In this document: piece by piece, positions 19,941 through 62,011 of the stretch
Layout of the letters: the number at the start of each line of letters is the position of its first letter
Position numbering within the stretch: the first letter of the stretch is position 1
Source: Terebella lapidaria
Lineage: Eukaryota; Annelida; Polychaeta; Terebellida; Terebellidae
Assembly: GCA_949152475.1 (NCBI GenBank)
Contig: OX424566.1
Location: 34,722,423-34,786,422 of the forward strand
Direction of reading: 5' to 3'
Length of the DNA stretch: 64,000 bases
Notes under the pieces: generated by a model
Database searches by the model: none
Seen by the model: the letters and a program-made list of their open reading frames with translations, nothing else
Told to the model about the DNA's origin: nothing
Translations under genes and position numbers: made by a program

Positions 19941-19982
19941 GATTCTCGAGATCCCATTTTGGGCTGAAATTCAACATAAGGG
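19941..19982 (+). repeat. 1.41-kb unit, copy 2, first 42 bp
   Basis: Matches 18532-18573 and is cut by the Gypsy insertion at the target AAGGG (19978-19982). Copy 2 resumes at 29708. Confidence 0.93.
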
Positions 19983-26390: not shown

Positions 26391-26667
26391 TTTTCGGAAA
26401 AATCCAGATTGGCGCCCATCGGAGGTACATTCGCAAAGATTTAGTAATGATAAAAACGTTTTAAAATTAATCTGATATACCATAAATGCAAACTTATTTA
26501 GTTTTTATTGTGTGAAAAGTCTTGACTTAGACAAAATGGCGGCCATCTTGGAAAATGGCGGCCATTTTTTTTTTCGGAGTGGCTAAACGTTCAATTTTGA
26601 AAAGTGGCCTAATGTCAACGTGTGTGTTAAATTTCATGCTTGTATCACAATTTGAACGATTATGTTG

Positions 26668-29526: not shown

Positions 29527-29702
29527 TGTAACGATGTCTATTTGTTACAAAATAAACAAACAAAGGATTGGTTGAAAATCACATTTGTTTATCGTTCATG
29601 TTACGTTTCAACTACTAAACTCCAGACCAAATACAGAGCCGTTTTACAAACAACGAAATATGTGAATAGTAGGAACCCGGATATTGTTATGCTATCACTA
29701 CA
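29527..29702 (-). repeat. Gypsy 5' LTR (176 bp)
   Basis: Identical to 19983-20158 and followed by the target repeat AAGGG at 29703-29707. Confidence 0.96.
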
Positions 29703-29707
29703 AAGGG

Positions 29708-39960: not shown

Positions 39961-40219
39961 CCTATGGCTCTATGTTTTTTTAAATGGCGGCAATTTTCAA
40001 CAAAAATGCCTGATTTTGGACTTTGACGGTCGTTTTCTCAAAATCCGTTCAGTAACGTGTTTTCTTATTGATGCATAACACTCCTCATATGTACTTCTGT
40101 GGCGTGTTTAAGTTTCGTTGCCCTTGAATTGCTCAAAGTGGGCCATTTTGGCCCAAAATCGGCCCAAATGGGACTTTCCCATCTTAAATCCTCCTATGCT
40201 TTTTAGTGGGACACAGTAT

Positions 40220-41560
40220 GCTTAATATTGAGATTAGAGATTCTGAATCAACTGTGGACATATAGGAAATGATGTATGCTGACCTGGAATTTGACCTCTG
40301 ACCTCAGTTTTAAGGTCAGAGCACAAAATGGCTTATATCTCGCTTATTATCGACTTTACAGCTTAGGAATCAATTGTCAACATATAGGAAATGATATCTG
40401 AATATTATCGTGACCTTGAATTTGACCTTTGACCTAATATTCAAGGTCACAGGACAAAATGGCTAATATGATGCTTATCGATTTTACAGCTTAGGAATCC
40501 ATTATGAACATGTAGGAAATGATATATACAGATTATTCTCGTAATCTTGAACTTGACCTATAGCCTAAATTTCAAGGTCACAGGACAAAATGACTAATAT
40601 CTCACTCATTTTCGACTTTGCTGCTTAGGAATCGGTTGTGATAGAAAATGATATATGCATATATAGAAAATGATATATGCCGAATATTGCCATGACCTTG
40701 AATTCGACATTTGACCTCATTTTTAAGGTCAAAGGACAAAATGGCTTAAATATTGCTTCACTATTGATTTTATAGCTCTGGAACCAATTGTGAACATGTA
40801 GAAAATGATAAACACTGAATATTTTGATAACCTTGAATTTGACCGTGACCTTATTTTCAAGGTCAGAGCACAAAATGGCTAATCTCTCATTTATTATCAA
40901 CTTTATAGCTTAGGAATCCATAGTGAACATATAGGAAATGATATATGCTGAATATTTTGGTGACCTTGGGTTCGACCTTTGACCTCATTTTCAAGGTCAG
41001 AGAACAATATGGCTAATATTTCGTTTATAATCGACTATACAGCTCAGAAATCAACTGCGAACAGGAAACGATATATGCTAAATATTCTCATGACCTTGAA
41101 CTTGATTTTTGACCTCATTTTCAAGGTCAGATCACAAATGGCTAATATCTCATTTATTATCACAGCTTAGGAATCAATTGTTGTCAAACTGCAAATGATA
41201 TATGCTGAATATTCTCGTGACCTCGACTTGACCAATGACCTTATTTTCAAGTTTCCTTTGACCTGATTTTCAAAGTGACAGAACAAAATGGCTAATATCT
41301 CGCTTATTGACTTCATATTGTGGGAATCAATGATGGACATAAAGGAAATGTTATACGCCAAATATTCTGGTGATCATGAATTTGACATTTGCCTTCATTT
41401 TCAAGGCCACAGGACAAAATTGCTCATATCTCTCTGATTATTGAATTTACAGCTTAGCAATAAACTGTGGACATGATATATGCTTAATATTATGTATGCT
41501 GAATATTCTCTTGACCTTGAATTTAACCAGTGACATGGCTAATATTTAAAATATTACACA
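40220..41560 (+). repeat. 134-bp family array, longer and diverged
   Basis: About ten units of the same family with many small deletions. TGACCTTTGACCT occurs at about 40423 and a close match at 40972; TTTTCAAGGTCA occurs in most units. The array is bounded on the right by TGTTCGGTAACTC (41571), a variant of the element end. Confidence 0.88.
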
Positions 41561-41889: not shown

Positions 41890-42425
41890 GAGAGTAGGAA
41901 TTAATTGCGGAGGTCGAGTTCAAGGTCATGAGAATATTCAGCATATATATATATATATATCATTACCTTTATGTGCAAGCTTGATTCCTAATCTGTAAAG
42001 TAGATAATAAGTGAAGTATTATCCATTTTGTGTGTTGACCTTGAAAATGAGGTCCAAGGTCAAGTTCAAGGTCATGAAAATAGTCAGTATATCATTTCCT
42101 ATATGTGCACAATTGATTCATAATCTGTAAAATGACAATAAGCAACATATTACCCATTTGGGGCTCTTGACCTTGAAAGGTCAAGTTCATGGCCATGAGA
42201 ATATTCAGCATATATCATTTCCTATATATCACAATTGATTATTAGCTGTAGAGTCGATAATAAGCGAGATATTAGCCATTCTGTGCTGTGACCTCAAAAA
42301 TTAGATCAACGGTCCAGTTTAAGGTCATGAGAATATTCGACACATATGGCATTTCCTATATGTCCCCAATTGATCCCTAATCTCTAATTCCAACATTAAG
42401 TGAGATATTGGCAAATATGTGTCCC
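41890..42425 (-). repeat. 134-bp family array, reverse orientation
   Basis: About four units with GAGAATATTCAGCATATATC, CAATTGATTCCTAA and TTGACCTTGAAA. An (AT)n run lies at 41942-41961. Confidence 0.85.
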
Positions 42426-42853
42426 ATTAAAGTGATATCGGCCGAAAGTTATGGATTTTGCCATACATTTCCAATCGAGTGGAGAAAACATAATAGTCAA
42501 ATATCTGCACTTGTATGCCCCTTTCTCATTGACTTCGTTGTGAGTTTATGGAGGAGATATTTTGAGTCTGTTGACATTACCGCCATTCTCAGTGCTTTGT
42601 ATCCCTTGATGCATTGCGATTTCAGCTTACTCGTATATGTTCAACTCAATCGAGTCAGATGTTTCACTGTCCCGGGTATCATCAAGGTCAGAGGTAAATC
42701 AGAGTGGCGCACAAAACAAAGGAAAAGCGGCTGCTAGCAGTGTCATGTGCTTGATTTATTTGCTTGTTTTCGTCCAGAGCACCAATGTGGGTCAGCTTCG
42801 CCACTCGGCTCATAAGATTATAATTCCCCGAAGCGCGAAGTGTATATTTATTA
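42426..42853. other. Gene-free stretch
   Basis: A frame at 42408-42737 has no recognisable domain. Nothing else is seen. Confidence 0.35.
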
Positions 42854-43292: not shown

Positions 43293-44518
43293 CAGGGGCG
43301 GGTATAGGATTTTAGGAGGGGGGGGGGGGGGGGCAAAACGTTTGGTTGACAGAGCGGCGAGCGAAGCGAGCCCATGTCGGGCGGGGGTCTGGGGCCCGCT
43401 CAAGGGCCCCAGACGCTGAAGGTTTATGCATCCCCAATGGTGTATTCTAGGGTTCTCCTTGGACCAATTTCATGGCCTTGGAGTGTTTATGAATGCCTAA
43501 TCTGGGGTGGATCGAGGGTTCTGAAGGAGGGCCAAGATATGAAATGTTGCGAAGCGAGTTGGCGAAGGCTGTGGGTCTGAGGTTCGCTTAAGGGCCCCAG
43601 AAGCTAAAAGGATATGCGTGCCCAGTGGTTTTTTTTTGTAGGCTTGCTTTGGTCCATGCCCCACTCCCCTAAGAGTTTTTGCATGGCTAATTCGGAGCTG
43701 AAGGTTTTTGCATCCCCAATGATGTGTTCTAGGGCTCTCTTTGGTCCAATATCCATGGCCTTGGAGAGTTTATGAATCCCTGATCTTAAGTGAATCCAGG
43801 GTTCAGAAGGAAGGCCAAGATATGAAATGTCGTGAAGCGAGGAGGTGAAGACCGAGAATCTGGGACCTGCATGAGGGCCCCAGAAGCTGAAGGGATATGC
43901 AGTGGTGTATTTTATAGGTTTTCTTAGTAGTCCATTTCCCATCCCCCTAACGAGTGTATGCATGGCTGATTTAGGCAAATCTAGGATTTTGAGGGTAAGC
44001 CCAGTTCTGAAATGTTAAGCAAGTTGAAGCAAGCCTTTGTCGGCTGGGGGTCTGGGGCCCGCTGTAGGGCCCCAGAAGCTGGCGGTAATCGCGTGCCTAA
44101 TACAACATCTCAGAGTTCTCTTGGGTCTAACTATCAAGCATTACTTAACACCCATAAATGCATGATCACTGTAGTTGAAACAAAATATGACATAAAATAT
44201 TACTTGGTTTTGGACTCCATCAGAGGATTAAGTGCATTTGGCCATTCAATGCTCTCAAATCATTTATAGAAGGTGGAGGGAATGAAGTGCTTTCACTGAG
44301 AACAGGTGGGTTGACTATAGAGTGAATACACTGCTCGCGACATGGCGCCCCAGAAGTTAAAGCTACTTTCCGGTGTAATTTATCTTGAAAACACTTCCTC
44401 CCCTCTTTCCCCCCCCCCCCCCCCCTTTTCCTTCCTTTTTTTCCCTTCTCTCTTTCCTTCTTTTTTTTTGGAGGGGGGGGGGGCAAGGCCCGCTTGGCCC
44501 CCCCTAAACCCGCCCCTG
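43293..44518. mobile_element. 1.2-kb related element nested one level deeper
   Basis: Ends CAGGGGCGGGTATAGG and, reverse complemented, CAGGGGCGGGTTTAGG. Flanked by GTGAT (43288-43292, 44519-44523). Internally it has three to four diverged 190-280-bp repeats with GCGAAGCGAG and a stem-loop TCTGGGGCCC/GGGCCCCAGA (perfect at 43388-43413 and 44051-44076). Confidence 0.8.
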
Positions 44519-45310
44519 GTGATGGTCATTCGTTTAATAATAAACATGAGATATAATTATCTTCAAAGTTATGCCGACTTCCAGAGTTATATCCAGACTT
44601 ATACAGAACTCTGTCTGAAAGAAACAAACAAATAAATAAATACAAATATCCCCGTGTATGTTCAGTTTCAGTATGAAGTCAAGTGTGTCGGACTAGATTT
44701 ATTATTGGAGGGGGTGGCGGGGGTGGTAATCTGGTAAGAGGAGTCAAGCGACCGAGCGAAGTGAGGTGGATAGGTGGTAGCCTACAAGGCGTGGGGTCTG
44801 GGGCGGGGCCCGATCAAGGGCCCCAGAAGCCAGAGTTTTTATCATGTTCTGTGGTTGATTCTGAGCTCTCTCTCTCTCTGGCTCTGATTTTTCATTCCAC
44901 ACATGCATGTAAACATTGCTGGTATTTTAATTTATTTATCCCATAACTACTCATTGTCACTTATTATATGTCATATAACTTAATTGCTGATCAATGACAC
45001 TCAATTGCATAATTATTGACCAACGAATGTTCAGACTATGTAACGCTGTAATGCACCTCAACATATTTTTGAGTCACAGATTTTTTTGTTGAAAATATAT
45101 TGTGGGGCTCTACCCCCCCCCCCCCCCCCGGTCAAAAATAACAAACGAGGAAAATTTCACTCATATTTCCTTACATGTAGGTGCACATACCCACATTTCC
45201 TATAGCTTCTTGCTCTCTTTTCTTTTCTTCTTTTCTTTTTCTCTTTTTTTTCACGGACCAATAGGGGGGGTGCGCGCCGGGTGCACCCCCCCCCCCTAAA
45301 TCCGCCAGTG
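44519..45310. other. Right part of the 2.3-kb element
   Basis: Carries another GGGTCTGGGGCGGGGCCC stem variant near 44792, a CT microsatellite (about 44870), C-runs at 45111-45129 and a pyrimidine-rich TTTTCTTTT tract. No gene. Confidence 0.6.
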
Positions 45311-45495
45311 CGTCCACTAAATGAATGCCATTTAATCCGTCTGTCGCCTTTTTAATCCTTATTGAATATAGAAGAAGGCGCAGTAAATGATACTTGGGCC
45401 AATAAAGCTATGGAGCGACGATGGTGTAAAGGGGGTGTTGAGCTTTTTAAAAGGAAATTTGACAATTGTAACGCTCCGTAACGCTAGGTGATACG

Positions 45496-45572
45496 CCCCC
45501 CCCCCCACACACACACACACACACCACCACCAACACCACCACCAACACCACCACCAACACCCCACACCAACC
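45496..45572. repeat. Poly-C, (CA)n and CCACCAACA minisatellite
   Basis: A C-run is followed by about nine CA and then five to six ACCACCACCA-type units. The mirrored frame codes only a low-complexity Trp/Cys stretch and is not a gene. Confidence 0.95.
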
Positions 45573-45682
45573 ACGCTATTGAAAACTTCCTAAAATGACC
45601 CACCCCTTCCAACCACTGAGGCAGATCACTGTTCTAAACGTAGTAGATATAATTATATTTACATTCATAATTAGTTATTTTC

Positions 45683-45726
45683 TAAATAAGCAAATGGACC
45701 GGATTCTGAGTTCATCTGACTTCATA
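45683..45726 (+). repeat. 44-bp direct repeat left of LINE
   Basis: Identical to 49463-49506. It sits directly left of the LINE start. The right-hand repeat, however, is separated from the LINE end by a 62-bp block that is itself repeated after it. Confidence 0.95.
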
Positions 45727-48700
45727 GGCGCTGGAACAGGCGCTGGAAGCTGCCACACAACTTGAAGAGCTCTTGGACATTTTGCAAATTACAGTAGTTC
45801 TCGTGGGCGGATTTCCACAGACTTTGCACCATAGGATGCGTGAACGTTCCAAGCACTGATCTGGATATATTCCCTGTTCCATGATTCGGAATGAATAAGG
45901 ATTATTGGTTGAATACATGCTTCATAATAGCTACATTGTTGATAACATTGGAATAGAATCAGTTGACCATGAAGCGTTTGGGATATTCAGTGCACCAACT
46001 CATGACCATGTGTGGTAGGATTAACTGTGTTGACCCAACTACATGGAAAACAATTAACTCGCTTGGGATTAACTCAGTCCAGCCCACTCTCAGAGGCAAG
46101 CGAGGAGGTGTGAATAACCATGTTCGCCAAATCCCAACTGTTAATCACCATCAACACTCTCATGGTCACCTTACTACTCTCAATGGGATTAATTCTGATA
46201 ACCTGATTACACTTCACGAACCGAGTGTATCCATCCCTGCAATCAACAATCCACCTGGTCTCAGATATCACAGGGACCCGAGCAAATCCCGCCATGATCA
46301 TCTGGTGGAAGTGAAGAAAATCAGCATCTCCAAAAAAGCCTCCACACCAAGAAGAACCCACTTCGCTCTGTGGAACGCCCGTTCAATAAACAATAAGATT
46401 ACAGCTATCTGTGACTTCGTCACTGCTGAGCATATTGATATCTTCGCTTTGACTGAGACTTGGCTGACAGGGACAGCAAATGATAACTTCACACTACAGC
46501 AACTGAAGCTGAACCTCCCTGACTACAAACTGATAACTCTCCCTCGGTCACATCGGGGAGGAGGAGGTGTTGCCATTCTCCTGAGGAAAGCTTTCAAGGC
46601 CATTGTTAACCAGACTGGGGAGTATAAATCGTTCGAAGTCCTGGATACAACCATCACGCACAGGAGTGACACCTCAAAGGGAACTAACCCTTTAAGACTG
46701 GTCACGGTATATAGACCACCTCCATCCCCAGCCAATCGCTTGAAAACTACAGATTTCTTCAATGAGTTTTCTTCGTTCATGGAAGTTTTCTCTATCCTCC
46801 ACTGCAACAAACTACTAGTTGGTGACTTCAATTTCCATATTGATAGAAGCACGGACAGAGACGCACGCTCCTTCCTGGACCTGCTCGACTGCAATGACCT
46901 CGCTCAACACGTGTCAGAGTCCACACACAACCGAGGCCACATCCTTGACCTGTTAATCACCAAAACACTCTCGTCCCTAATAGCTGATGTACAGCTCCAC
47001 CATTGTCTTCCTTCTGATCATGCTGCAGTCTCCTGCGACCTCGCGCTGAGTAAACCACCGCCGACGAGGAAAGAGGTTATCGTCCAGAACCTGAAAGCCA
47101 TTGACATTACTGCATTGCGGCAGGACCTTGCATCAATACTACCCATCACCGAGGACGTTTCCGACCCATGTCATCTCGCAAATACACTGTCGACAGTCAC
47201 GGGCGAATTGTTATTGAAGCATGCGCCCAAAACATCGAAAATGGTTACAGTTCGTCCCAACACACCATGGTTCTCAGATGACATCAAGAAAGCAAAACAA
47301 ACCAAGCGGAAGCTGGAGCGAGCCTGGAATAAATCCCGCCTCACTGTCCACAGGGAAATCCTCAAATCCTTCTCACGCGACTACTATTCCTTAATTGATA
47401 ATTCCAAGACTGCGTACTACCAGTCTATGATTGAGTCAGCCGACCAACGGGGACTTTTCCGCTTTGTACGCAATATGCAAGGTGGCAAAACACTCCAATC
47501 TGATGACCAAAGCAGTGACCTAGCCGAGCAATTCAGCAGCTTTTTTAGCACAAAGATCGCCAAAATTCGCGATAAGTTGGACTCTGCCCCTGAACTCCAT
47601 GTTGAAGACCCCGTCGCTCTTCCATTTGAGCCACCCTCGGTGCTGTGCAGTTTCGCACCAGTCACAGAAACTGACATAAAAAAACTAATCTCTGGAGCTC
47701 CAAATAAATCAAGTTCTCTGGATCCAATGCCGGTGTCTCTAATCAAGCAATGTGCAGATACCCTCATCACTCCCGTCACACAGCTCATCAACAGTAGTCT
47801 CCAGAATGGGACTGTGCCTTCCTGTTTTAAATCGGCTGTAATCACACCAATTCTTAAGAAAAGCACCCTCGATCCACAGACACTGTCCAATTACCGGCCG
47901 GTGTCAAATCTCCCGTTCTGGTCCAAGGTCCTCGAGCGTGTCGTTGCAATGCAACTACACCAATATCTCCGAGAGAACAGTCTTTATGAATCAATGCAGT
48001 CAGCATACAGGAGCCACTACTCGACAGAAACGGCGCTCCTGCGCGTGTCCAATGATGTTCTACTATCGCTTGATGAAGGCCGCGAGGTAATACTCCTCCT
48101 ACTAGACCTAAGCGCAGCCTTCGATACTATAGATCATCAAACCCTTCTGGACCGACTATCGAATCGATTTGGTATCAAGGCCACAGCTCTTAGATGGGTG
48201 ACATCCTACTTGACAGAGCGCACCCAAAGAGTATCAGTCAATGGCCACACATCAAAGGAGGATCAACTCAAGTGGGGTGTACCACAGGGTTCGGTACTTG
48301 GCCCCCTTTTATTCACCCTATACACAGCCCCCATTGGCGACCTGATACGCCGACATGACCTCGAATTCATGCTGTACGCCGATGATACACAAGTGTATGT
48401 CAAGGTCGACGCTGGAAGTCAGGCATCCTCTATCAAGAAAATCGAACGATGTCTTTCAGATCTGCGTGGCTGGATGTTCGAGAACAAGCTGTGTCTCAAT
48501 GACGGTAAAACGGAACTGATCTGCTTCTCCTCGAAGTTCCGCAAATCTGCCACACTACCAAGTGTCATCATCGGCAACTCAATTATCGAGCCATCGACCG
48601 CCGCTGCTCGTAATTTGGGTGCCCTGTTTGATGGTGATATGTCCATGGACGAACAAGTCAAAGCTGTCTGCCGCTCAGCAACTTCCAGCCTGTACAACAT

Positions 48701-49400
48701 AGGAAAGATCCGCCAATATCTAAACCACGCCAGTGTAGAAAGGCTAGTATGTGCCTTCGTGACATCAAGGCTGGACAATTATAACAGTTTGCTAAATGGC
48801 ATTCCCACTTCTCTTTTGGCTCGTCTTCAGCGCGTTCAGAACTCTGCGGCTAGGTTGCTCACCCGTACCAGTCGATACGACCACATAATGCCGGTCTTGC
48901 GACGGCTCCACTGGCTTCCGATCCATGCAAGGATACATTACAAGATCATCCTCTTGGTATACAAGGCTCTCAATGGCCTCGCACCAGAGTACCTCCGGGA
49001 CATCCTGCATATCAAGACTCCCGCTCGAGATTCACGGTCATCTTCGTCAGTCCAACTGTCCATCCCTCGTGTCCGGACCGCTTACTACGGTGATCGTGCT
49101 TTCAGTGTATCAGGCCCAAAGCTTTGGAACTCTCTGCCCTCACAACTACGAAACACAAGCTCTGTCGAACAGTTCAAAAAAGACTTAAAAACCCACTTGT
49201 TTCGTTCAGTCTACCCGCAATAGGTTCTAGTCATATCACTCAAATCTGTTTAATTTTTATAACTGTATACACTGTAATTTTGTCGTTTTTACTACAATTT
49301 TGTCTTTTTATTGTTTCACACATATTACATGTCCAGCGCGTCGAGAACTATTTCATTGTTTTATGCGCTATACAAGAATAAACTTATTATTATTATTATA
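45727..49400 (+). mobile_element. L2/CR1-like LINE, apparently full length
   Basis: A 5' leader of about 236 bp starts GGCGCTGGAACAGGCGCTGG. It is followed by one long ORF, a 3' UTR and a tail of ATT repeats typical of L2/CR1-type elements. It inserted into a pre-existing 106-bp tandem repeat. There is no obvious target duplication beyond a few bases. Codon use is richer in C than the neighbourhood. Confidence 0.93.
45963..49223 (+). CDS. LINE ORF2: endonuclease and reverse transcriptase
   Basis: 1086 residues without interruption. The apurinic-type endonuclease starts at FALWNARSINN (about 134). Its catalytic motifs are LTETWL (about 167), GDFNFH (287) and SDHAAV (351). The reverse transcriptase has SNYRPVSNLP, LLDLSAAFDTIDH, GVPQGSVLGP and YADD (805-808). 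The C-terminal part ends in RLHWLPIHARI, LWNSLPSQLR and FKKDLKTHLF, typical of L2/CR1/jockey-group proteins. The enzyme nicks target DNA and copies its RNA in place. All motifs needed for activity are present. The first 130 residues are rich in His and Asn and match no domain I know; a later ATG might be the real start. Confidence 0.96.
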   Translation: MTMKRLGYSVHQLMTMCGRINCVDPTTWKTINSLGINSVQPTLRGKRGGVNNHVRQIPTVNHHQHSHGHLTTLNGINSDNLITLHEPSVSIPAINNPPGLRYHRDPSKSRHDHLVEVKKISISKKASTPRRTHFALWNARSINNKITAICDFVTAEHIDIFALTETWLTGTANDNFTLQQLKLNLPDYKLITLPRSHRGGGGVAILLRKAFKAIVNQTGEYKSFEVLDTTITHRSDTSKGTNPLRLVTVYRPPPSPANRLKTTDFFNEFSSFMEVFSILHCNKLLVGDFNFHIDRSTDRDARSFLDLLDCNDLAQHVSESTHNRGHILDLLITKTLSSLIADVQLHHCLPSDHAAVSCDLALSKPPPTRKEVIVQNLKAIDITALRQDLASILPITEDVSDPCHLANTLSTVTGELLLKHAPKTSKMVTVRPNTPWFSDDIKKAKQTKRKLERAWNKSRLTVHREILKSFSRDYYSLIDNSKTAYYQSMIESADQRGLFRFVRNMQGGKTLQSDDQSSDLAEQFSSFFSTKIAKIRDKLDSAPELHVEDPVALPFEPPSVLCSFAPVTETDIKKLISGAPNKSSSLDPMPVSLIKQCADTLITPVTQLINSSLQNGTVPSCFKSAVITPILKKSTLDPQTLSNYRPVSNLPFWSKVLERVVAMQLHQYLRENSLYESMQSAYRSHYSTETALLRVSNDVLLSLDEGREVILLLLDLSAAFDTIDHQTLLDRLSNRFGIKATALRWVTSYLTERTQRVSVNGHTSKEDQLKWGVPQGSVLGPLLFTLYTAPIGDLIRRHDLEFMLYADDTQVYVKVDAGSQASSIKKIERCLSDLRGWMFENKLCLNDGKTELICFSSKFRKSATLPSVIIGNSIIEPSTAAARNLGALFDGDMSMDEQVKAVCRSATSSLYNIGKIRQYLNHASVERLVCAFVTSRLDNYNSLLNGIPTSLLARLQRVQNSAARLLTRTSRYDHIMPVLRRLHWLPIHARIHYKIILLVYKALNGLAPEYLRDILHIKTPARDSRSSSSVQLSIPRVRTAYYGDRAFSVSGPKLWNSLPSQLRNTSSVEQFKKDLKTHLFRSVYPQ

Positions 49401-49570
49401 CATGTACATATAAAAGCTTACAATAAAACAAGTGGGTTACATAACACCCGCCCTACCCCCTGTAAATAAGCAAATGGACCGGATTCTGAGTTCATCTGAC
49501 TTCATACATGTACATATAAAAGCTTACAATAAAACAAGTGGGTTACATAACACCCGCCCTACCCCCTGTA
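49401..49570 (+). repeat. 106-bp tandem repeat at LINE 3' side
   Basis: A block from CATGTACATATAAAAGC to ACCCCCTG is at 49401-49462 and again at 49507-49568, with the 44-bp block between them. This gives the order A-LINE-B-A-B. Confidence 0.93.
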
Positions 49571-49671
49571 GATCTAACCCCCCTCATTGGCTAGATAGGC
49601 CCCTAGCACCAACTCAAACATACCATAGCTCACTAATGTGCTCATAGCGCACCTTAAACGCCTGTTGAACC

Positions 49672-49905
49672 CACAAATGTTAAAACGCCCACAAATGTGA
49701 AAACCCACAAATGTGAAAACAAATTTTGTAAATCACCCACAAATGTAAAAAAATCAACCACAAATGTGAAAACGTTTTTTGTCAACTACCCACAAATGTG
49801 AAAATCTTCACCCACAAATGTGAAAAAAACTTCACCCACAAATGTGAAAAATAAAATCAACCACAAATGTGAAAACGATTTTTGTCAATTGCCCACAAAT
49901 GTGAA
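49672..49905 (+). repeat. Ten spaced CCCACAAATGTGAAAA motifs
   Basis: CACAAATG, usually as CCCACAAATGTGAAAA, occurs at 49672, 49690, 49706, 49738, 49759, 49791, 49813, 49837, 49862 and 49894, all in one orientation. Spacing is 16-32 bp. The core CACAAATGTG is nearly palindromic and contains an E-box (CAAATG). Spacers are short and AT-rich, and not unique as in a CRISPR array. Confidence 0.93.
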
Positions 49906-49944
49906 AATCTGACACAACATTAGCTTCAACATGAGGAATGTTTT

Positions 49945-50720
49945 TAGGTTACCGACCTTTGTTCTGAAAACCTATTGCACAATTAATACTTTCCCCTATT
50001 ATCATCATTTTTCCATGAAAACCTTCATATCTCAGTAAATATTGATCGTAGAGCAAAAAGGACGTTATTTTCGGACCCGTAGGACAAATTGGCCATATAC
50101 TGGTGTGGTTTAGTATAAGATTACACCTGTGATGTCAAATTACACCAAACCGGAAGTAGAAATATTTTTCAAGGAAATGGGCTCAGGATGCCCAAGGATC
50201 AGTTATCAGGCCGTTTTGGTGTGTTTCAAGGCCAAAAATTTATACTTTCCCCTATTATCACCCACTTTTCCATAAAAACCTTCATATCTCAGTAAAGATT
50301 GAACGTAGAGCAAAAAGGACATTATTTTCGAACCCATAGGGCTAATTGGCAATATACTAGGCGTGGTTTGGTATCAAATTACACCTGTGGTGTCAAATTA
50401 CACCAAACCGGAAGTAGTATTATTTTTCAAGGAAATGGGCTCAGGATGCCCAAGGATCAGTTATTAGGCCATTTTGGTGTGTTTGAAGGCCAAAAATTGA
50501 TACTTTCCCCTATTATCACCCACTTTTCCATAAAAAACCTCCATATCTCAGTTAATATTGATCGTAGAGCAAAAAGGACATTATTTTCGAACCCGTAGGG
50601 CTAATTGGCAATATACTAGGTGTGGTTTGGTATCAGATTACACCTGTGGTGTCAAATGACACCAAACCGGAAGTAGAATTATTTTTCAAGGAAATGGGCT
50701 CAGGATGCCCAAGGATCAAC
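49945..50720 (+). repeat. 259-bp tandem repeat, about 2.8 copies
   Basis: CATATCTCAGTAAATATTGA-type markers at about 50023, 50281 and 50540 give spacing of 258-259. Units include GTCAAATTACACCAAACCGG and GGGCTCAGGATGCCCAAGGA. The array starts after TTAGGTTACCGACC (49945), again an element-end variant. GTAGAGCAAAAAGGAC resembles part of the 147-bp family. Confidence 0.9.
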
Positions 50721-50825: not shown

Positions 50826-50874
50826 TATGTGATGTGATGTTTGTCTACTAACCATGCCTTGACGGTAATAACCT

Positions 50875-50970
50875 CACGGTGGCTAAGCGTTACGCGTTAT
50901 TCACGGAGTGCCGCGTAAAATGGTGAGTTTTACGCGCTATTCGAGAGGAAATGGCAGCCTCAGAGTGACC
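50875..50970 (+). repeat. Outer terminal inverted repeat, left
   Basis: Starts CACGGTGGC directly after AACCT and pairs with 61911-62006. Confidence 0.85.
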
Positions 50971-51059
50971 GTGAGATGGAAATACATACAATTCCGCTAT
51001 TTTTACCGTTTTGAAATATCGTATTGGGGTCTGCACGGAACATTACACATATTCATGGT

Positions 51060-51715
51060 TGTTGTACATATAGTCAGGAGGAATATTGAGCATATGGCAC
51101 TCAGGGTGGAAATGTAGTACATACTTTTTCTATCGATTGATATGGCTTCATAATGGTCTAAGACAACCTTTTTCAGAGGGTGTGTAAAATTTTCTCCCGG
51201 GCTAACTTTTTTATGGCCTTTTTCAAAATGGCCGACATCGAAAATTAGGTATTTTAGGAAAAAAAACAAAATTATCCTCCCGGCATGATGCTTTTGGTCT
51301 ATTAAGGTGACGTTTAGTTATATGGAGATATATTCTTCATAACAATACTACTAATACCGATTCAAACGTCCCGAAAATGGAAAAAATCCAAGATGGCCGC
51401 CAAATTCTCGCCATTTTTACATGAATGTTCATAACTTCCTGCCAAATTGAGATAGGAAGCCAATTTTGGTGTCTAACCCTGGGTTTTGGGGTATGAGGAT
51501 TCCAAATAAATAACCAGTTTCATGATTGGATGGTTCGAAGATGCTCAGAATCCAAGATGGCTGCCAAACGATAGCTCGATTTCGCAAATAAGCGCCAATA
51601 ACCGTCACATATTCAAAATAAGAAGGCAATTTTGGTGGCCATTCCTGGGGTTTGGGGTATGAGAGTGCTACCTGAAGAAATACTTTTGTGTGTAGATGGT
51701 GATTGGCCAGTTTAA
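51060..51715 (+). repeat. Inner long inverted repeat, left arm
   Basis: Reverse complement of 60285-60930. Shared segments include TAGTCAGGAGGAA, TCGATTGATATGGCTTCATA, GGGCTAACTTTTTTATGGCC, TTGGGGTATGAG and GTGTGTAGATGGTGA. Contains two ATCCAAGATGGC(C/T)GCC sequences. Confidence 0.9.
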
Positions 51716-51929
51716 AGCTATCCAACTGTCCAAAAGCCAAGATAAGGACTCATTAATAAAACACGAGCAAACAAACCTGTTTAATATCACTCACTCGCAC
51801 TTCAAAATAAACAGTACCACTACCAGGCATAATTTTTTTCCGAGCAATCAAACCCAAGTATATTATATCAGGCATATCAATACCAAGTATATTATATTAA
51901 GCATTTAAAACCATATAACAGCTGCCAGA
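51716..51929. other. AT-rich spacer
   Basis: Nothing recognised between the inverted arm and the Helitron remains. A duplicated ACCAAGTATATTATAT phrase lies near 51850-51895. Confidence 0.4.
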
Positions 51930-52593
51930 ATGTTTGATCAGATTGTAAACAACTCTTGAAATTGATGATCACTTCACCATCAAATCAAATTGGCAAAGTC
52001 TGTGACTACTTTGTGTCAATTGAGTTTCTACGAGGAGATTGGCCTCACATTGGTATTTACATTCACTGCCTTTTCTGAGTATAAAATCCTCCTAAGCTGG
52101 ACAAATAACTTGATGAGGAAGTTTTTGACGTTATTAACAAGTATATCAACACAGAGGACGTTGATTAGACGAGATACAGCAAGTTACATGACATTATAAA
52201 TGATGTTCAGCTTCATTTCAAGAATTATACAAAGTCATGCAAGAAGGGTAACAGGACCCACAGGTTCAGTTTATCCCGTCCACCTTCTTGTCAGACCTTT
52301 ATGTGCCATCCCAGCAGACACTGATCCAGATGAGTGAAAAAACGCTGCTGAAGAACAAGCCTGGAACATTATAGCCTCCACGAAAATGGTTGTACATAAA
52401 CATAAACACAAAGACTGATGGGTGAGTCAGTACAAATCAAAACCCTTTGAAAGCCTTGAATCCTAATTTTGACTTACAATATGTTGTTGACGCATACGCC
52501 TACATTCGATATATTGTGTCATATTATTGCAACAAGAAGCAGAGTGAAGGTGGTCCGCCCCTTCATGAAGAACCATGCAGAGCACAATATCGA
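51930..52593 (+). pseudogene. Helitron Rep region, decayed
   Basis: Translating in shifting frames gives pieces typical of Helitron Rep proteins: WPHIGIYIHCLF (compare the family's PHIH motif), then VINKYISTEDVD, DIINDVQLHFKNYTKSCKK followed by FSLSRPPSCQT, and NPNFDLQYVVDAYAYIRYIV. In this family Rep is the HUH nuclease that drives rolling-circle transposition. Several frameshifts and stops occur, for example a TGA right after the HCLF piece (about 52078) and a TGA at about 52338. The frame is then cut by the element at 52594. The coding strand and order match the helicase remains at 58453-60140. Confidence 0.8.
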
Positions 52594-52603
52594 CGGGTAA
52601 AAA

Positions 52604-52905
52604 CCAGAAGGTCGTAAGCGCCATTTTTGGTGAAATGAGTTAATCAGTCAAATCAAGCCAGGAGCTTCTTTGTCATCATCCAATCGATGACTGATCATGC
52701 TCTCAATAAACCAAAACCGGAAATTCATTTTTTTTGTAAAAAGTCGTAAGCGCCAAATTGCACGAAACGTGTTCGCCAAAAGGTCGTAAGCACCAGAGAT
52801 TTTTGCCAGAAGGTCGCAAGCGCCCGTGTGTGATTCACAATGGTGACGCCAGAACCTCGTAAGTGCACTTGCGTCAAAGCCAGAACATCGTAACCGCCAA
52901 CATGT
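52604..52905 (+). repeat. Left subterminal motif cluster
   Basis: CCAGAA(GG/CC/CA)TCGTAAGCGCC-like copies start near 52604, 52737, 52777, 52807, 52848 and 52879. Such clusters in other transposons bind transposase; this role is inferred. Confidence 0.85.
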
Positions 52906-53009
52906 GCTGACATTCGAGGACTTTTACCCGACATGTGGAAGGGTTATAGGTTACCTAAAACATATAAAATATATGTGAACAAATAAAAAAAATAGGTTAC
53001 CTAAAACAT

Positions 53010-53340
53010 ATAAAATATATGTGAACAAATAGGAAGGGATATATTCTGAATATTGTCATGACCTTGAAGTTTACCATTGACCCAATTTTCAAGGCCACAG
53101 GACAAAATGGCCAACTCGTATCTAACTATGTTTTTGGATAAATTATTTGGTCGGATTTGCTTTTATTGCAAAATGTTGTATTTTACGTTTGTTATTGGTA
53201 TCATCAAAATCTGATTGTATCGGTGGTAATAGATTGATACTTACATTTATACCACTGAGCCGGTGTCACTGCTGGTGGACGTTAAAACTGTCACCGAGGA
53301 TACCATCAACTCAGTAGCCTTTTGGTTTGTGATTAGGTAC
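53010..53340. repeat. 134-bp family fragment and 97-bp direct repeat
   Basis: 53030-53125 is one 134-bp-family piece. 53141-53237 recurs at about 53704-53797 on the other side of the SINE (AAATGTTGTATTTTACGTTT, TGTATCGGTGGTAATAGATT). Confidence 0.75.
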
Positions 53341-53690
53341 TAATAATAATCATGATAATAATCGGTTCTTATATAGCACTTTATCAAGGTTACACACATT
53401 CTCAAAGCGCTTCATAGTTTGGACTTTAGTCCTCTGAGAGTGGTCACTGCCAGGGTACATGTCGTTCTCAGAGGGGCCTTTTACATCCCTTTACAACGTT
53501 TTTTAAGAGATGGGACCGCCATTTTACGTGATATCCGAGTCACGGGCACACTGTGTTGTGAGGACAGGGAAAAAATCCCCTTACGATTACCGCACATGCG
53601 GCCCGGCGTAGGATCGAACCCACGCCGGCGATAGCTGTTGGTTCAAATTGAGCGACTAAGCGCTCGCACATAACCACTCGGTTACGTCTT
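53341..53690 (-). mobile_element. tRNA-derived SINE with LINE-like tail
   Basis: On the minus strand, box A TAACCGAGTGG (53674-53684) and box B GGGTTCGATCC (53611-53621) lie about 55 bp apart, as in a Leu/Ser-type tRNA. A body of about 250 bp ends in GAAGCGCTTTGAGAATGTG, a GTGCTATATAAGAACC piece and ATT/ATA repeats, the 3' style of L2-type LINEs. Transcription by RNA polymerase III and mobilisation by an L2-like LINE are inferred. A 97-bp direct repeat flanks it but is too long for a normal target duplication. Confidence 0.85.
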
Positions 53691-53797
53691 ATCCTTTCAG
53701 ATCAATTATTCGGTCGTGCTTTGTATCCATTGAAAAATGTTGTATTTTACGTTTGTTATTAGCATCATCAAAATCTGACTGTATCGGTGGTAATAGA

Positions 53798-54470
53798 TTG
53801 AATATTACCGATTTTACAGCTTAGAAATCAATTGTGAACATAAAGGATATATACTGAATATTTGACATTTGACCTCATTTTCAAGGTTTCAGGACAAAAT
53901 GGTTAATATCTCGCTTCTTATTCACTTTACAGCCTAGAAGTCAAATTTGGACATATAGAATTCGACCTTTGATCTCATTTTCAAGCACATGGGACAAAAT
54001 GGCCAATATTTTGCTTCTTTTCGACTATATAGCGTTCGAACCAATTGTGGACATACAGAAAATTATATACGCTGAATATTCTGATGACCTTGAACTTGAC
54101 ATTCGACCCTATTTTTGAAGATAGAGCACAAAACATGCGAAATGGCTAATATTTCGTTTATTATCGACTTATCATCGACTGTGTACCGCTTAGATATTAA
54201 TTGTGCACATATAGGAAATGATATATGCTGGATATTGTCATGACCTTGCATTTGACATTTGAACTCATTTTCAAGGTCACAGCACAAGATGGCTAATATT
54301 TTTCCTTAATACCGACGTTTCAGCATAGGAATCAAGTGTGCATTTGTAAGGAATTATGTATGCTGAAAATTTTGATGACCTTGAATTTGACCAGAGACCT
54401 TATTTTCAAAGTCACGGGGAAAATGACTGATATTTAATGTATGAACATATGCTGTCCGGTAACCTGTCTT
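53798..54470 (+). repeat. 134-bp family array
   Basis: About five diverged units with TCACAGCACAAGATGGCTAA, ATATAGGAAATGATATATGC and TGACCTTGAATTTGACC. It ends at CTGTCCGGTAACCTG (54449), the element-end motif. Confidence 0.85.
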
Positions 54471-57400
54471 AGCCTTTGGGCTATTTTTTTTCCTTCTCGC
54501 GGACTTGATGTGCCATTCATCTTGGTTCGTATATGTTGCATAATGTGATTTGTTCATTGATAATGCATTTAGAATCTGAGAGAAAATGCACCATTCATCT
54601 ATAGTTGATTCGCCTCTGGTCTGTCCAGTCAATGAGCAATAAAAGGTGACGTGCACTCTTCCTCTGCTCATTAACCATTGTTGTCGACACTTTTCTCAGG
54701 CCTACATTATAATAGGCCTATATAGATCCAGGCGGTAGGGCGGATCAAGAAATTTGAGAGGGTGGGGGAGGGGAGGGGGTGCAAAATAATAGGCACGGGT
54801 CTGGCACCCGCTCAAGGGCCTTGAGCAGTAGATCTAGTCATATTGATTGTTATGTCCTGTGGAAAATTCTTGGCCACTGCTGCATAAAGAATTCCAAAAC
54901 CTCACATGTAGGTTTACAAGTAGGCCCAGCCTACAGCCTACAGGTAGGATCGTAAGCCTATTGCATTCCATATATGGAACGTTGGACTGACCATGTGCCG
55001 TGCCGATGTACAATCGGCAATCTTCTCAATAGGCATATCATGATATCAATACTGTATAATTCAACATTATACAATGTTATATATAATATGATTGTTTGAA
55101 ACAATCCGCTGCTGCAGGCCTATGTATAAAGCGATCGTTCGGCGACTGTAGTTTACGATCGATCGGTTCAGGTTACAAAGTTACAATAACTATTATTCTA
55201 GGGAACACTGTAAGATTATAATTATTCAATTATTTACAATTATAATTATTTACAACACTAATAAATATAATCGGCCATGAACCAAGCTCGACGCATAGGC
55301 CTACCTTCTATGAATTAATTTACGCATATTTTTACATTTCGGCCCTAACATATCTCCTGAACAATGTCCGGTATTAAATCTCCCGAGCAATTTGCAGCAT
55401 AAGAAATTGAAAATGGTTTGAATGAGTTTCAGCAGTTGGCGATTGCATGCCAAATGACTACTCTTAGTATTTGAGACTACGATACTTAACGGTGGCCCCT
55501 TTCGCATGCCATAGGCCTAAGCCCACTCATAAACTGAAACATCAACTAAAGTCATATTTTTATGTGGGCCTACATGTAGATCTGTATATCAAAACACACT
55601 GTAAAAAACATATCTTGGATAAAATCACAAAATATTAACTATGATAAATTTATCGGATATTGCAAAACAAAAACAGCATAGATCTAGAAAATAAATATTG
55701 AACAGCATGTAGCCCGGAATAAAATACCTAAGTTGTATTCGAACGCGAGCGCTCTAACTATTCCGACACTGTGGCATCACGCAACCGAGCGTTATCTCTC
55801 TTCAACTAGCAACTGATATTACTTACAACAGCATGACGACCAGAGAACGTTAAGAAATCCAAAACCAATGTAACCCCCGTAAGCTTCCGCCCCCCCCCCC
55901 CCCACCACCCACCCTCCAAACACAAATGAATATTTGTAGGCTGTGTAGCACTTCTGGTATGTGTGTTAAGGAGTCCTTAGGCATTGGAATTATAATACAG
56001 ATTACACCACTGAAACTTGCCTGCTTCAAGATTTGACAATATTCACCATGACAACTTTTTAGTTAGGCCTAATTTTACGAGAAAGAATAACTTATCAGTG
56101 TAGGCATATTAGGATATATACCATATTGCTCCCAATAGTGGCACGCACCCTAATAGAAGCACGCCCCATCTTTTCCCCAGAAATACTCGCTTTTCGTAAC
56201 CTTATATTTCACGTCATATCTTTCTAATAAAATCTTGGGGAATTCCAATCCACATATTATGATATTTGAATCATAATAAAGGGGAATTGAAGGCTATGGG
56301 TACATTATTCAGTGTTTGTCTCATTTTTTACCTAAATTTTGACCTTATTCTTGCGCGCGCTGCTGTGGGAGATCTTGCTTTGGCTCGCCGTGCTACTATT
56401 AGGACCAATATACGGCAATTTAATTGCAAACACACGCATGGTAAACACAAAAAAGAAACACTGTTATATCACTTTGAAATGATGAACTTCATCATGATAG
56501 TGATCAATTTAACAATATTTAAGTTCGCCCACAATAAATATGACTATCTCACACCCAAGAGCCACGACGTCACATTTGTGATGTCGCTGTGATATCCTTG
56601 TGATATCACCAGTGTCTTACACTGTCAGTCAATATTCATTCCCTGTATATCCATGTATATCAAAATGTCATGTTAAAATTACTCCGGGCAAGATTGAAAG
56701 ATAAGAAAGAAAAAGAACAAACATGAGAAATAAAATGTGGATATTTCTTGGTGTTTAATTGTTGGTGAGCATTTTCTATCCAGTATTTTCAGAGACATAA
56801 TTTGAACCTCCCCTAAAATCGACCTCCCAAGAAATATTAATAATTCAAAAGTGTTCACGGCCAATAAGTTGGTATGGGAGGAGGGGTCAGGACAGTGGTT
56901 GCTGAGTAGAACTGCGTTCATTGAAACTTGGCCCCATAATATGGTACCGACTATTGCGTTATATGAAACCGTAAAATCAAGACACTCCTGGAATTTTTTT
57001 TTCGACCTCGGGATAATCGGGGGTTTTGGTCGTACGACCATCGGACACGCAGGAAAGTACACAAGTCTTATTCAGAAGACAAATCTTTGAACACAGGTCT
57101 TATTCAGAAAAAAAAATATTGCATTTTTTTCGATTTGGACCTTTTGTTTGAACTTGACTTTTTTTATTTACGATAGCCATTAGGCCATCACCTCACAAAG
57201 TCCGTCAAATACTTCTAGTTACTAGTACCTGAAACACGACACACCCGCCTGGGTACTTGTTTCTCAGATGCCTGTACAGTAGATTCGGTGCCAATTTGTA
57301 GGGTGTTATCCAAGAGGAAAATGGTTGACCGTACTGTATTGAGTCAAATATTTGCTGGATTTCAATAAAATAAAAGGGGAAAATGTCAGACACGAAGTAT

Positions 57401-57790
57401 GATATAACGTACCCGAGATTATGAATTTTCATCAAAATTCAAAATAACACCAGCAAATGCCGGAGATAAGTTAGATGAGTCGGGAAAAATATGTGCCGTT
57501 TGTATGGCGCACAAAAACAGTGGCGTCTTTTATGAGAACGCCGAAATATTGCCCGCGAAAATGCCCGCGAGAGAGCGCAAAACTTATCCAGTAAAAGGTT
57601 CATGTGGGCTTCATAGCCTAAATCACAGCACTTTGCTTTGGTATTCTATCACGCTATTGTCATGATGATGAAGGCTTCATAATAATACAAAGTATAAATA
57701 CCTATGGTTATCATTCGAGGTATAACACGCTCACTATTCAGGATAAACACGCCAAAAGTTACAGTGAAATTTTTTGTCTTGGGCTGACGT
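54471..57790. other. Gene-free interior of the 5.85-kb element
   Basis: 54740-54830 contains a GGCGGATCAAG...GGGTCTGGCACCCGCTCAAG piece related to the hAT-like element. A C-run is at 55890-55903. 57003-57050 matches the 300-bp repeat (CTCGGGATAATCGGGGGTTT). Frames at 56266-56592 (+) and 56679-57062 (-) show no domain I recognise. If the element ever had a transposase here, it is not visible to me. Confidence 0.45.
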
Positions 57791-57804
57791 TCTTTCACAG
57801 CCAC

Positions 57805-58445
57805 TGGCACTTACGATGTTCTGGCGAACTCGTGTGGCGGTTACGATGTTTTATCGATTTGACCCATTCACATTGCTCCAATTTTAATTTCGTTTACCGG
57901 GTATGATCCACTATCCACGTATTGCGCCATGAACTCGTATCATTGTTGTATTTTGAAATAGAACGGAGTTGTGGCCTCGCGAAAAACACTTACGACCTTC
58001 TGGCGTTTCGTCAGTGTTAGGTTTTTGCGGAATAGTGACGAGCCAGAACCTCGTAAACACCATTTGCTTTGTTCATGCTTGAAAGCGAGGAATTCGCTAA
58101 GATATCGATGAGATGAGATTAGTTTCCAAAAGTAAAACTAGAATAAGCATGCATTGGCAGAGATTATCCCATTTAAAATTGTCGCTTACGATGTTCTGGC
58201 TGGTACCAAGCATAGCTATGCCTTGTTTAGACGTGACGCCAGAACATCGTAAGTCACATTTCTTTCGATAATTAAATAAAAATAATAGCTATGGTGAATG
58301 AAATAAGTGAAATGACACCAACAATCCCTATTACAAAGCATGTGGCAGAAGAAATTTCAAGGATCACAACAACTAATTCTACAGGATGAAAAATGACGCT
58401 CTTGTAAAATTGTGAAAATGGCGCTTACGACCTTCTGGTTTTCAC
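57805..58445. repeat. Right subterminal motif cluster
   Basis: Motif copies near 57811, 57834, 57987, 58181 and 58422 read GCGCTTACGA(TG/CC)TTCTGGC. Copies near 58042 and 58232 are in the other orientation. Confidence 0.85.
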
Positions 58446-58452
58446 CCGTCGA

Positions 58453-60140
58453 TATGCTGGGATAAGACAGACGATAAGCTACAATGACTAGGCAAAACAT
58501 ACCTGACCAACAGGGAGATGAGTGTCATGGAGGCTATTTACAAGGCCACAGGCACACCTCTCAAAAACTGTAGTCGGGATGTTGTTTGGATACTTGCAGA
58601 TCCGACAAGTACCAGACTGACACTTCCATTCTTACTGCTGGGCCACTGAGATTCAGGCATTGATTACGTGTGGCTACACTGTATATCTGTACTAGACAGG
58701 TACATGTACATGTACTATGCACGCCCTCCTGTAGATATTCTCAAAGACCTGTCTGGTTGAAATTGTATCTCTCTTCAATGTTGATAGTAAACCAGGTAGA
58801 GATTATGAACCATCTGAAGAAAATTCTACCCATAACAACGACAACCGGTCCAATGTTCCATATGCTTCATCGAAGTTGGCTGGGAATAAATGATAGATCT
58901 GAAGACGGAAATCTTTCAGTAAAGCTTGTACATCTGTAGGGACAGTGAGAAACATTATCAGAATCTCATGGTTCTTTATCTTAACCACTTTGAAATGGAT
59001 TTAAATGAGTGGGAGCATTTCCTACTATGGCAAAAGGACAAGCATCAGCAACATTACCAGAGAAAAGCAAGCGCTATTTGGAAATAATATCAAAGAGGTT
59101 GAAGTAGCCATGAAGAGATCCGAGAAAATCATCTTGCAGAAGATGCCTTGGCACACATTGCCCCAGCAAGTGGCGGCTGGACGCTTGGAAACAAAAGCCA
59201 ACCTAGATGACGCTTACCTCGAGGACATCAGTTTGGAAGACCTGCCAGATTGAGTGGCCTGCCTCGGAGCTCCAACACCAAAATGGGCTCAGTTGTCAGT
59301 AGAGCACAGCATCTTGGCAATCCCATAGAATCAGGCTCAAGTTCTCATGCAGTGCATGAACAATATGCAAGGGAAAGTCTTCATTCATACTCGCTAGTGG
59401 TGCATCGATAAGATGAATATATTGGTAAAGGAAAGTTTTATATCATCAAAGCTCTGATGTGTGGCTCCAACTGGCAAAGAAGCATTTACCATCAGTGGCG
59501 GAACCATGCTTCCATGCAAAGGGGTGTGGGACAAAAGTATATACCACTTGTTGAGGAGCTCATCACTGCCCCCAAAGGTTAGGTATCAAAACCTCGAGCT
59601 GATAATCATTGATGAGATCTCAGCAGAGGCTTGCTGAATTTCATCAGAGGTCGTCTGGATCAACTCATGAGAAACAAAAGTTCTTCATGATTCTGGCAGT
59701 CAGTGATTCTATCCACTGCCGCATGTAAGAGGACAAATACTGAGACCCAGCTGCCCTTGCAGAGCCTTGGGACGACTTCAAGGTTACTACTTTGACCGAC
59801 ATAATGAGACAAAAAAATGACAAATCGTTTTCGGAGATGTTGAATCATAGAGCTCTGAAAATTAGGAGATGCTTAAGGATCACAGATCCAAGCAGATGTA
59901 CTTCATGTGTTTCCTTTCCAGAAAGTTGCTGCTGCAGACTGATTCTTTGAACAGACAGAAATCGAAGATTGTGGCTGTGAATGTTATCGAGAATATATCT
60001 GGCTTGAAGAAGAATACAACACCTGTACTTTTGAATGCAACCTTTCTGCTAATGTTACACTCTGTAAGGGCTCCATGGTGACTATGATGAGCAATCCCAA
60101 TGTAGAGGATGGTCTGGTGAGGATGGTCTGGTGAGAGTCT
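58453..60140 (+). pseudogene. Helitron Rep end and Pif1-like helicase, decayed
   Basis: Fragments in shifting frames follow Helitron order. First comes a VMEAIYKATGTPLKN-like piece (compare EAIYRLLGLPLK), then a linker with the 82-residue frame 59005-59253. Next is a degraded Walker A near 59420 (IGKGKFYIIKAL) and motif Ia VAPTGKEAFTISGGTM (about 59455-59510). Walker B LIIIDEISAE is near 59600, then LTDIMRQKNDKSFSEMLN (about 59792-59845), and finally KGSMVTMMSNPNVEDGLV (about 60066-60120). These are hallmarks of the Pif1-family helicase of Helitrons. Frameshifts and stops are frequent, for example TGA just after the DEISAE piece. Confidence 0.88.
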
Positions 60141-60284
60141 GGTCAAACCTCCCGAAGAGTTGGCTCAGAAATTTTTTTTTTCTGTCTGATAGTGGTTGAT
60201 TCTGTTGATTTTGTGCGAGTGGGTGCTATTAGACGGGTTCGTTTACATGTTTCACATTAATTAATGGTTATCTTCGCCTTTGAA

Positions 60285-60930
60285 CACCTATAAATTGGCC
60301 AGTTACCATCTACACACAAGAGTATTTCTTCAAGTAGCACCCTCATACCCCAAAGCCCAGGACTGGCCACCAGAGTTGGCTTGTTATCTTGATATATATG
60401 ACGGTCATTGGTGCTTATTTGCGAAATCGGGCTAAAATTTGGCAGCCATCTTGGATTCTGAGCAGCTTCAAACCACCCAAACACAAAACTGGTTATATAT
60501 TTGAAATCCTCATACCCCAAAACCCAGGGTTAGACACCAAAATTGGCTTCCCATCTCAATTTGGCAGGAAGTTATGAACATTTGTGTAAAAATGGTGAGA
60601 ATTTGGCGGCCATCTTGGATTTTTTCCATTTTCGGGGCGTTTGAATCGGTATTATTAGTATTGTTATGAAGAATATATCTCCATGTAACTAAATGTCACC
60701 TTAATAGACCAAAATCATCATGCCAGGAGGATAATTTCGTTTTTTTTCCTAAAATACCAAATTTTCGATGTCGGCCATTTTGAAAAAGGCCATAAAAAAG
60801 TTAGCCCGGGAGGAAATTTTACACACCCTCTGAAAAAGGTTGTCTTAGACCATTATGAAGCCATATCAATCGACAGAAAAAGTCTGTACTACGTTTCCAC
60901 CCTGTGTGAAATTTCCTCCTGACTAATAGT
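60285..60930 (-). repeat. Inner long inverted repeat, right arm
   Basis: Reverse complement of 51060-51715. Confidence 0.9.
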
Positions 60931-61910
60931 TTAAATTAAAGAAATCAGCCAGTGTAGCGATACCTTTGGCTGCAAAATATCTGTCAATATTACTTCGACA
61001 GCCACTCTCCTCGGGTTTGCGGTTGAAATTGTTATGTATCGGCAGGAATGTAGTTAAAATGCGAGCTCTATGTCAGTGATAGTATGGGTTTCACATGTGC
61101 CTGTCTTCAAAATGTTTCACATCGGTCGCAGGTGGCACAAATTTAGGTTCAATGTATCATTTGTTTATTTGCTATATTTTAGGCGATGTGCGTGAGGGCT
61201 TTACGCGTATGTGCATGAGTAAATATTTTGTTGAAGTTGGGTTATTTCATTTTTAAATGCGAATCTTGCACCAGTTTCAATGCTCAATTGATGAAATGAA
61301 TTCATGTTAAAGAGATGCTGTGTTCACTTGGTGAACTTCTCTGTAAAAGACATATGAAGTTCTCAGTATTGCCAATTTCAGAGTTATTAAGATTGGGAGG
61401 AATATATTGATGATAATGATAAATGAGGAGTATCGTCAGTTCTTGCAGCAAGTGCAGCCTCAAATCATTCTTTAAAAATCTCCATATACACACTTCCAGC
61501 GCCACCATCCCCGACAACGCTCACATAGTTCCTCATGATTTAACGCGTGTGCAGGTTTTCTCCCTCAGGCTGATATGCAAAAACCACAAAAAACTTCCTA
61601 TGTAGTGAAATACTCGATTAAAACAGCTGGTTTAATGGTGTAACAATAAAGAAAGATTTCTCCGAGCATTCTATGTTTTACCGACATACACTTCGTTAGT
61701 TTCAATTGATAACCGATGATATTTCACGAACGAGTCACAAACTTGCGGGTGTTGTCATGAACTGTGTGTCCATTCTCGTAAATATAACGACGTTTGCATG
61801 TAATTCATGGGAGCAAACCTGATGTTTGCTTATTTGGATGTTCCGTGGAAACAGAATTTTAGGAAGAAACTGAACCTTTTCATTCAGTTTCCCAATTTTA
61901 AGTACGAACC
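60931..61910. other. Gene-free stretch in right arm
   Basis: About 980 bp with no counterpart in the left arm, where only about 90 bp separate the outer and inner inverted blocks. It may be an unrecognised insertion, or the left arm may be deleted. No gene seen. Confidence 0.45.
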
Positions 61911-62006
61911 TGGGTCGTTTCATATGCCATTTCCTCACAAATAACGCGTCATACTCACGATTTTACGCGGCACTCCCTGAATAATGCGTAACGCCTAGCC
62001 ACCGTG
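61911..62006 (-). repeat. Outer terminal inverted repeat, right
   Basis: Pairs with 50875-50970 and ends in CCACCGTG next to AACCT. Confidence 0.85.
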
Positions 62007-62011
62007 AACCT

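Follow-up and report, generated by a model that had tools for sequence, protein, structure and literature searches.

Transposons of the Transib superfamily are described in PMC4411706 as producing 5-bp target duplications, and 5-bp duplications are likewise given for Hztransib in PMC1852546. In the sections of PMC8289069 on which we draw, Transib ends are symmetric in most families and show similarity to the heptamer with little or no similarity to the nonamer, and a GC bias is reported for the target duplications of ProtoRAG, Transib, and RAG. The same sections give the ends of ProtoRAG as TR1 (CACTATG) followed 27 or 31 bp further in by TR5 (GCCATCTTG). For RAG-like (RAGL) elements, the part of PMC7204232 that concerns their ends describes an A-rich block at positions 8–10 and a protostome consensus, CACTWMCAAACKTYKBB.

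We analyzed a 64,000-nucleotide stretch of Terebella lapidaria DNA (hereafter, the window) in which a pair of inverted repeats beginning with CAC encloses positions 50875 to 62006. On balance, we favor the reading that these repeats are the ends of one non-autonomous cut-and-paste DNA transposon of ~1.28 kb (50875–51070 plus 60926–62006), with Transib-type ends, into which other mobile sequences were later inserted.

Outer terminal repeats and flanking duplication

The outer element and its flanks comprise the following features.

50870–50874, no strand: left AACCT copy of the probable 5-bp target duplication, read from the sequence
50875–50956, plus strand: left terminal inverted repeat, starting CACGGTGGC; 82 bp, 73 of 82 positions identical to the right repeat
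50912–50936, plus strand: 9-bp inverted repeat CGCGTAAAA / TTTTACGCG with a 7-bp spacer, within the left terminal repeat, read directly
50957–51070, plus strand: left inner part, in which no homology to its right counterpart was detected
60926–61924, plus strand: right inner part, 999 bp, without a coding match
61925–62006, minus strand: right terminal inverted repeat, from alignment to the left repeat
62007–62011, no strand: right AACCT copy of the probable 5-bp target duplication, read from the sequence

The sequence CACGGTGGCT reads inward from either side, with AACCT adjoining both ends. A first-pass annotation had described inverted ends of CACGGTGGC that abut AACCT on both sides, and this description was confirmed: the 82-bp repeat aligns without gaps, its two copies differing by four transitions and five transversions, and the AACCT match is exact. 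The repeat was recovered in a BLAST comparison of the window with itself (E = 4.5e-24) as a span of 83 bp, which contains one extra base past the end (T/A) supplied by the duplication. The 9-bp inverted repeat of the left terminal repeat has a counterpart in the right repeat in which one arm is changed at two of nine bases. Exact CACGGTGGC occurs twice in the window, each time at an end of the outer element; with up to one mismatch there are 10 matches compared with 6.46 expected, and 10 were reached in 11 of 100 shuffles of the window. The 9-mer alone is therefore no evidence, and the evidence is the 82-bp repeat. A second copy of the outer element was not found in the window among self-matches longer than 60 bp with E up to 1e-6.

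Internal to the repeats, the 114-bp left and 999-bp right spacers gave local alignment scores of 20 (reverse complement) and 19 (same strand), compared with a mean of 18.8 and a maximum of 25 for 100 shuffles.

Exact agreement between 5-mers arose by chance in 262 of 200,000 random pairs from the window (about 0.13%) and, at the very spacing of the outer element, in 593 of 52,858 pairs (1.1%), the latter figure probably being inflated by repeats. When both ends were shifted symmetrically, by 3 bases at most, two parses proved exact, one pairing CAC ends with the 5-bp AACCT and the other pairing TCAC ends with the 3-bp ACC. The second parse arises because AACCT has A as its first base and T as its last, which allows the ends to be taken as TCACGGTGGC flanked by a 3-bp ACC duplication. 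The element might thus belong to another superfamily, either a CACTA/CMC-like or other 3-bp group with TCAC ends or an unfamiliar 5-bp group, and CACTA-type MITEs are indeed listed in a table of PMC9033116 with duplications of 2–4 bp, compared with 5 bp for the Transib type. The ends are CACGG, however, rather than CACTA or CACTG. In a reckoning with equal base frequencies, moreover, the 3-bp parse needs two more flanking bases to agree by chance (1/16), whereas the 5-bp parse needs one chance complement (1/4). We consider membership of another superfamily unlikely. The 5-bp parse, which involves fewer coincidences than the 3-bp parse and is in line with the established association between CAC ends and 5-bp duplications, appears to be the likelier one for this single copy.

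Relation to Transib and RAG-like transposons

Both ends of the outer element carry the heptamer CACGGTG, which matches the RSS heptamer CACAGTG at six of seven positions; the fourth base is G, in contrast to A in the RSS and T in ProtoRAG. In comparison with the Transib superfamily and its non-autonomous members (Hztransib being the described active element), the outer element shares CAC ends, an RSS-like heptamer, near-symmetric terminal repeats, and, on the favored parse, a 5-bp duplication, and it differs in having no transposase, in the G at the fourth heptamer position, and in the nested units that inflate its length. The G+C content of AACCT (two of five bases) counts against a Transib-type assignment. 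Transib-type ends with a 5-bp duplication nevertheless appear to be the best structural fit, and the assignment to Transib is putative. Hztransib itself reportedly starts with CACGGTGG, which is a lead only; a literature text search did not find CACGGTGG alongside the name Transib. Papers retrieved with CACGGTGGC and "transpos" were judged to be unrelated on the basis of their titles and the starts of their abstracts, and absence from print is not claimed. The string CACGGTG had 0 occurrences in one paper checked.

In the first-pass annotation, CAC termini with 5-bp duplications had been taken as the signature of both Transib and RAG-type transposons; the Transib portion of this proposal is retained as the best fit, and the further marks of RAG-like elements or ProtoRAG that were tested (A-rich positions 8–10, TR5 at its spacing, and the nonamer) were not found. 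If the outer element were a non-autonomous relative of RAG-like transposons (RAG1L/RAG2L, ProtoRAG), its CAC start would be accounted for, as would its probable 5-bp duplication; both are features of ProtoRAG, TransibSU, and RAGL elements, and PMC7204232 reports non-autonomous RAGL elements in an oyster and several deuterostomes. On the other hand, neither RAG1L nor RAG2L was found, and the outer element is without an A-rich block after the heptamer (positions 8–10 are GCT at both ends), and without TR5 at its spacing, and its ends are near-identical whereas those of RAG-like transposons are asymmetric. The protostome RAGL consensus was matched at 7 of 17 positions by the left end and at 8 of 17 by the right end. 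For TR5, both ends matched at three of nine positions with a spacer of 27 and at two of nine with a spacer of 31, the best match within the first 86 bp being five of nine, and nonamer matches at 12 and 23 were two to four of nine. A RAG-like origin thus seems very improbable.

No RAG1-like or Transib transposase had been visible in the first-pass annotation, and none was detected in six frames with Pfam or PDB. In the Pfam search of 50875–62006, with stops replaced by X and a limit of E = 1, none of the six frames returned a family, neither RAG1 nor RAG2 being matched; the same holds for a convergent pair of RAG1L and RAG2L genes, both of which a non-autonomous copy would lack anyway. As a positive control, 44001–50700 treated in the same way yielded RVT_1 (E = 5.2e-29), endonuclease domains, and a weak DUF5845 match (E = 0.5); the control gene is an open, intact LINE, and a heavily decayed transposase could escape detection. 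In the control region, the open frame at 45957–49223 (1088 amino acids) encodes endonuclease as well as reverse transcriptase domains and looks like an intact LINE frame. Comparison of the six frames with PDB at E up to 10 turned up neither RAG nor Transib chains in a collection that presumably includes RAG1, ProtoRAG, and Hztransib chains, and five of the six frames were without any match. Bestrophin in the sixth frame (12 PDB sequences, E = 0.45–1.2) was judged to be a chance match. Rfam (gathering scores) and tRNA searches over the window gave 0 and 0 matches.

Units enclosed by the outer repeats

Between the inner parts of the outer element lie a second unit (E2) and, within it, a third (E3).

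51068–51070, no strand: ATA, possible 3-bp target duplication of E2, left; weak, a 3-bp match
51071–60925: E2, with its own 740-bp inverted arms and ATA on either flank
51071–51832, plus strand: left inverted arm of E2; alignment to the right arm gives identity at 673 of 739 bases, with 30 gap columns
51833–52586, plus strand: decayed frames resembling the middle of a Helitron Rep domain by motif, with no search support
52587–58455, plus strand: E3, 5869 bp, ends ATATCGACGGGT, 41-bp terminal inverted repeat with 40 of 41 positions identical
53009–54439, plus strand: diverged repeated units within E3, with related arrays elsewhere in the window
58456–60179, plus strand: decayed frames resembling a Helitron Rep-helicase by motif, with no search support
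60180–60925, minus strand: right inverted arm of E2, from alignment to the left arm
60926–60928, no strand: ATA, possible target duplication of E2, right

The more than 700 bp of inverted sequence mentioned in the first-pass annotation are real, in the form of the E2 arms of about 740 bp, although they are not continuous with the outer repeat, lying 114 bp inside it at the left end and 999 bp inside it at the right end. The two arms have their outermost 13 bp, TAGTCAGGAGGAA, in common, followed by a short gapped stretch and then by the long arms, whose outer portions agree at 518 of 555 positions and whose inner portions agree at 151 of 180. The duplication can alternatively be parsed as TA with GTCAGG ends. 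E2 is similar to foldback or long-inverted-repeat DNA transposons in its 740-bp inverted arms with internal repeats, and it differs from them in holding an apparent truncated piece of a Helitron-type gene and in its short, uncertain duplication (ATA or TA).

The internal repeats of the arms are spaced at 164–166 bp. The sequence CCAAGATGGC, which we take to resemble a YY1 site, is present six times in the window compared with 0.07 expected, with four copies in the E2 arms, including those at window positions 51388 and 51552, in the left arm. The remaining two sites (21443–21452 and 26542–26551) face each other just inside gypsy-type integrase and reverse transcriptase frames. The complement of CCAAGATGGC contains most of ProtoRAG TR5, and the motif is absent from the outer ends.

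A Helitron within the element had also been proposed. Pieces that we take by eye to be Helitron-type Rep/helicase fragments lie around 52480–52550, 58500–58620, and 59600, and the frames that flank E3 look like two parts of one decayed Helitron-type Rep-helicase, as judged from motifs by eye. No support for this proposal was obtained from Pfam or PDB. With E up to 10, Pfam found no Helitron family in six sub-frames (only DUF3969, 0.11, and Mhr1, 8.2) and no Helitron or helicase family in five short pieces (only DUF3969, 0.15, and Myosin_VII_N, 0.085). Two Helitron-like pieces compared with PDB yielded no helicase, one being without a match and the other matching a repeat-containing glucosaminidase chain (E = 0.0066) with no stretch passing alone. 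For one such piece, tblastn in phages gave no match, and 0 of 44 pattern matches in viral contigs were confirmed. Given that the flanking frames look like two parts of one Rep-helicase, E3 would interrupt a Helitron-type gene.

E3 looks like a DNA transposon–like unit of 5.9 kb. Its 19-base repeat motif (CCAGAAGGTCGTAAGCGCC), with up to three mismatches allowed, was found eight times in the whole window, all eight inside E3, compared with 0.00 expected. Four copies are on the plus strand at the left (52604–52898) and four on the minus strand at the right (57806–58438), all facing inward; the terminal repeats account for two of the eight. Transposase binding sites of DNA transposons are arranged in this way, close to the termini and facing inward. 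The ends of E3 carry a palindromic ATAT, so that the duplication length can be read as 4, 2, or none. Pattern scans of a collection of viral contigs, which says nothing about copy number, gave 0 matches for the outer end (exact pattern), for an E2 arm, and for the E3 motif.

The diverged units at 53009–54439 are related to arrays at ~13.1–13.4, 14.2–15.0, 39.2–41.5, and 41.9–42.4 kb of the window (13098–13426, 14212–15001, 39218–41534, and 41911–42429, respectively). Also inside E3, direct repeats of 89 bp (88%) enclose 53245–53719, presumably a SINE-type insertion by its look. The window starts with a tandem array (1–600) of 75-bp period whose copies are 96–98% alike, and it contains sulfotransferase frames in addition to the LINE and gypsy-type frames. 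Segments shared between 18569–20158 and 29527–31097 flank the gypsy-type frames, one pair aligning over 1395 bp at 97.8% and the other over 176 bp at 100%. Their order is swapped, with 18569–19939 pairing with 29703–31097 and 19983–20158 with 29527–29702; they may be long terminal repeats accompanied by a second, short repeat.

Size of the outer element and order of insertion

Without E2, the outer element measures 196 + 1081 = 1277 bp, a usual length for a non-autonomous DNA transposon. The locus had been annotated as one 11.1-kb element; the outer ends of that element are real, but the separate inverted ends of E2 and E3 inside it fit nested insertions better. An 11-kb transposon is thus probably not what jumped, the stretch probably being instead an ordinary nest of mobile DNA. 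Nesting is suggested by the E2 arms, whose outermost 13 bp are common to both arms and adjoin ATA at either end, and which are parted from the outer repeat by unequal spacers without detectable homology, as well as by the terminal repeat of E3 and its four plus four inward-facing subterminal motifs. Against this model, the ATA match is only 3 bp long and possibly due to chance, and the outermost 13 bp are gapped from the rest of the arm. Both the family assignment and the nesting reading are based on one copy.

For the movement of the outer element we infer action in trans: a Transib-type DDE transposase produced from another genomic locus would bind the two near-symmetric 82-bp repeats, cleave at CAC on each side, and insert the element into a target with a 5-bp stagger, so that AACCT comes to flank it at both ends. 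E2, with its inverted arms, would then have inserted into the outer element and E3 into E2, the distance between the outer ends thereby growing to 11.1 kb. That E3 entered E2 is most likely. E2 may have entered the outer element at its present site, or it may have done so at a previous site and travelled with it.

The whole 11.1-kb stretch, with E2 and E3 already inside, might alternatively have moved as one non-autonomous Transib-type unit, given that the AACCT pair records just the most recent transposition of the outer ends and that the inner units may already have been present at that time. The reading frames of E2 are strongly decayed, and its ratio of observed to expected CpG (0.36–0.67) is lower than that of the outer element (1.0–1.59), with E3 at 0.91–1.05. 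E2 could, however, have been a decayed passenger when it inserted, and CpG depletion was rejected as a clock for the order of insertion because an open gypsy frame of the same window is similarly depleted (0.51). Transposons of such length, furthermore, are seldom mobile with a transposase supplied in trans. We therefore regard movement as a single unit as rather unlikely, and continue to favor a short outer element with later nested insertions.

It is quite improbable that an 11-kb unit with Transib-type ends moved whole while carrying a long-inverted-repeat element with a piece of a Rep-helicase gene; if it did, a RAG-related transposase would be able to mobilize large composite DNA in trans. 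The locus also provides a caution: real outer ends can enclose unrelated nested transposons, in which case the enclosed length says nothing about the element. If the outer element does belong to a Transib family, its copies would supply a further set of RSS-like ends, this one found in an animal-type genome.
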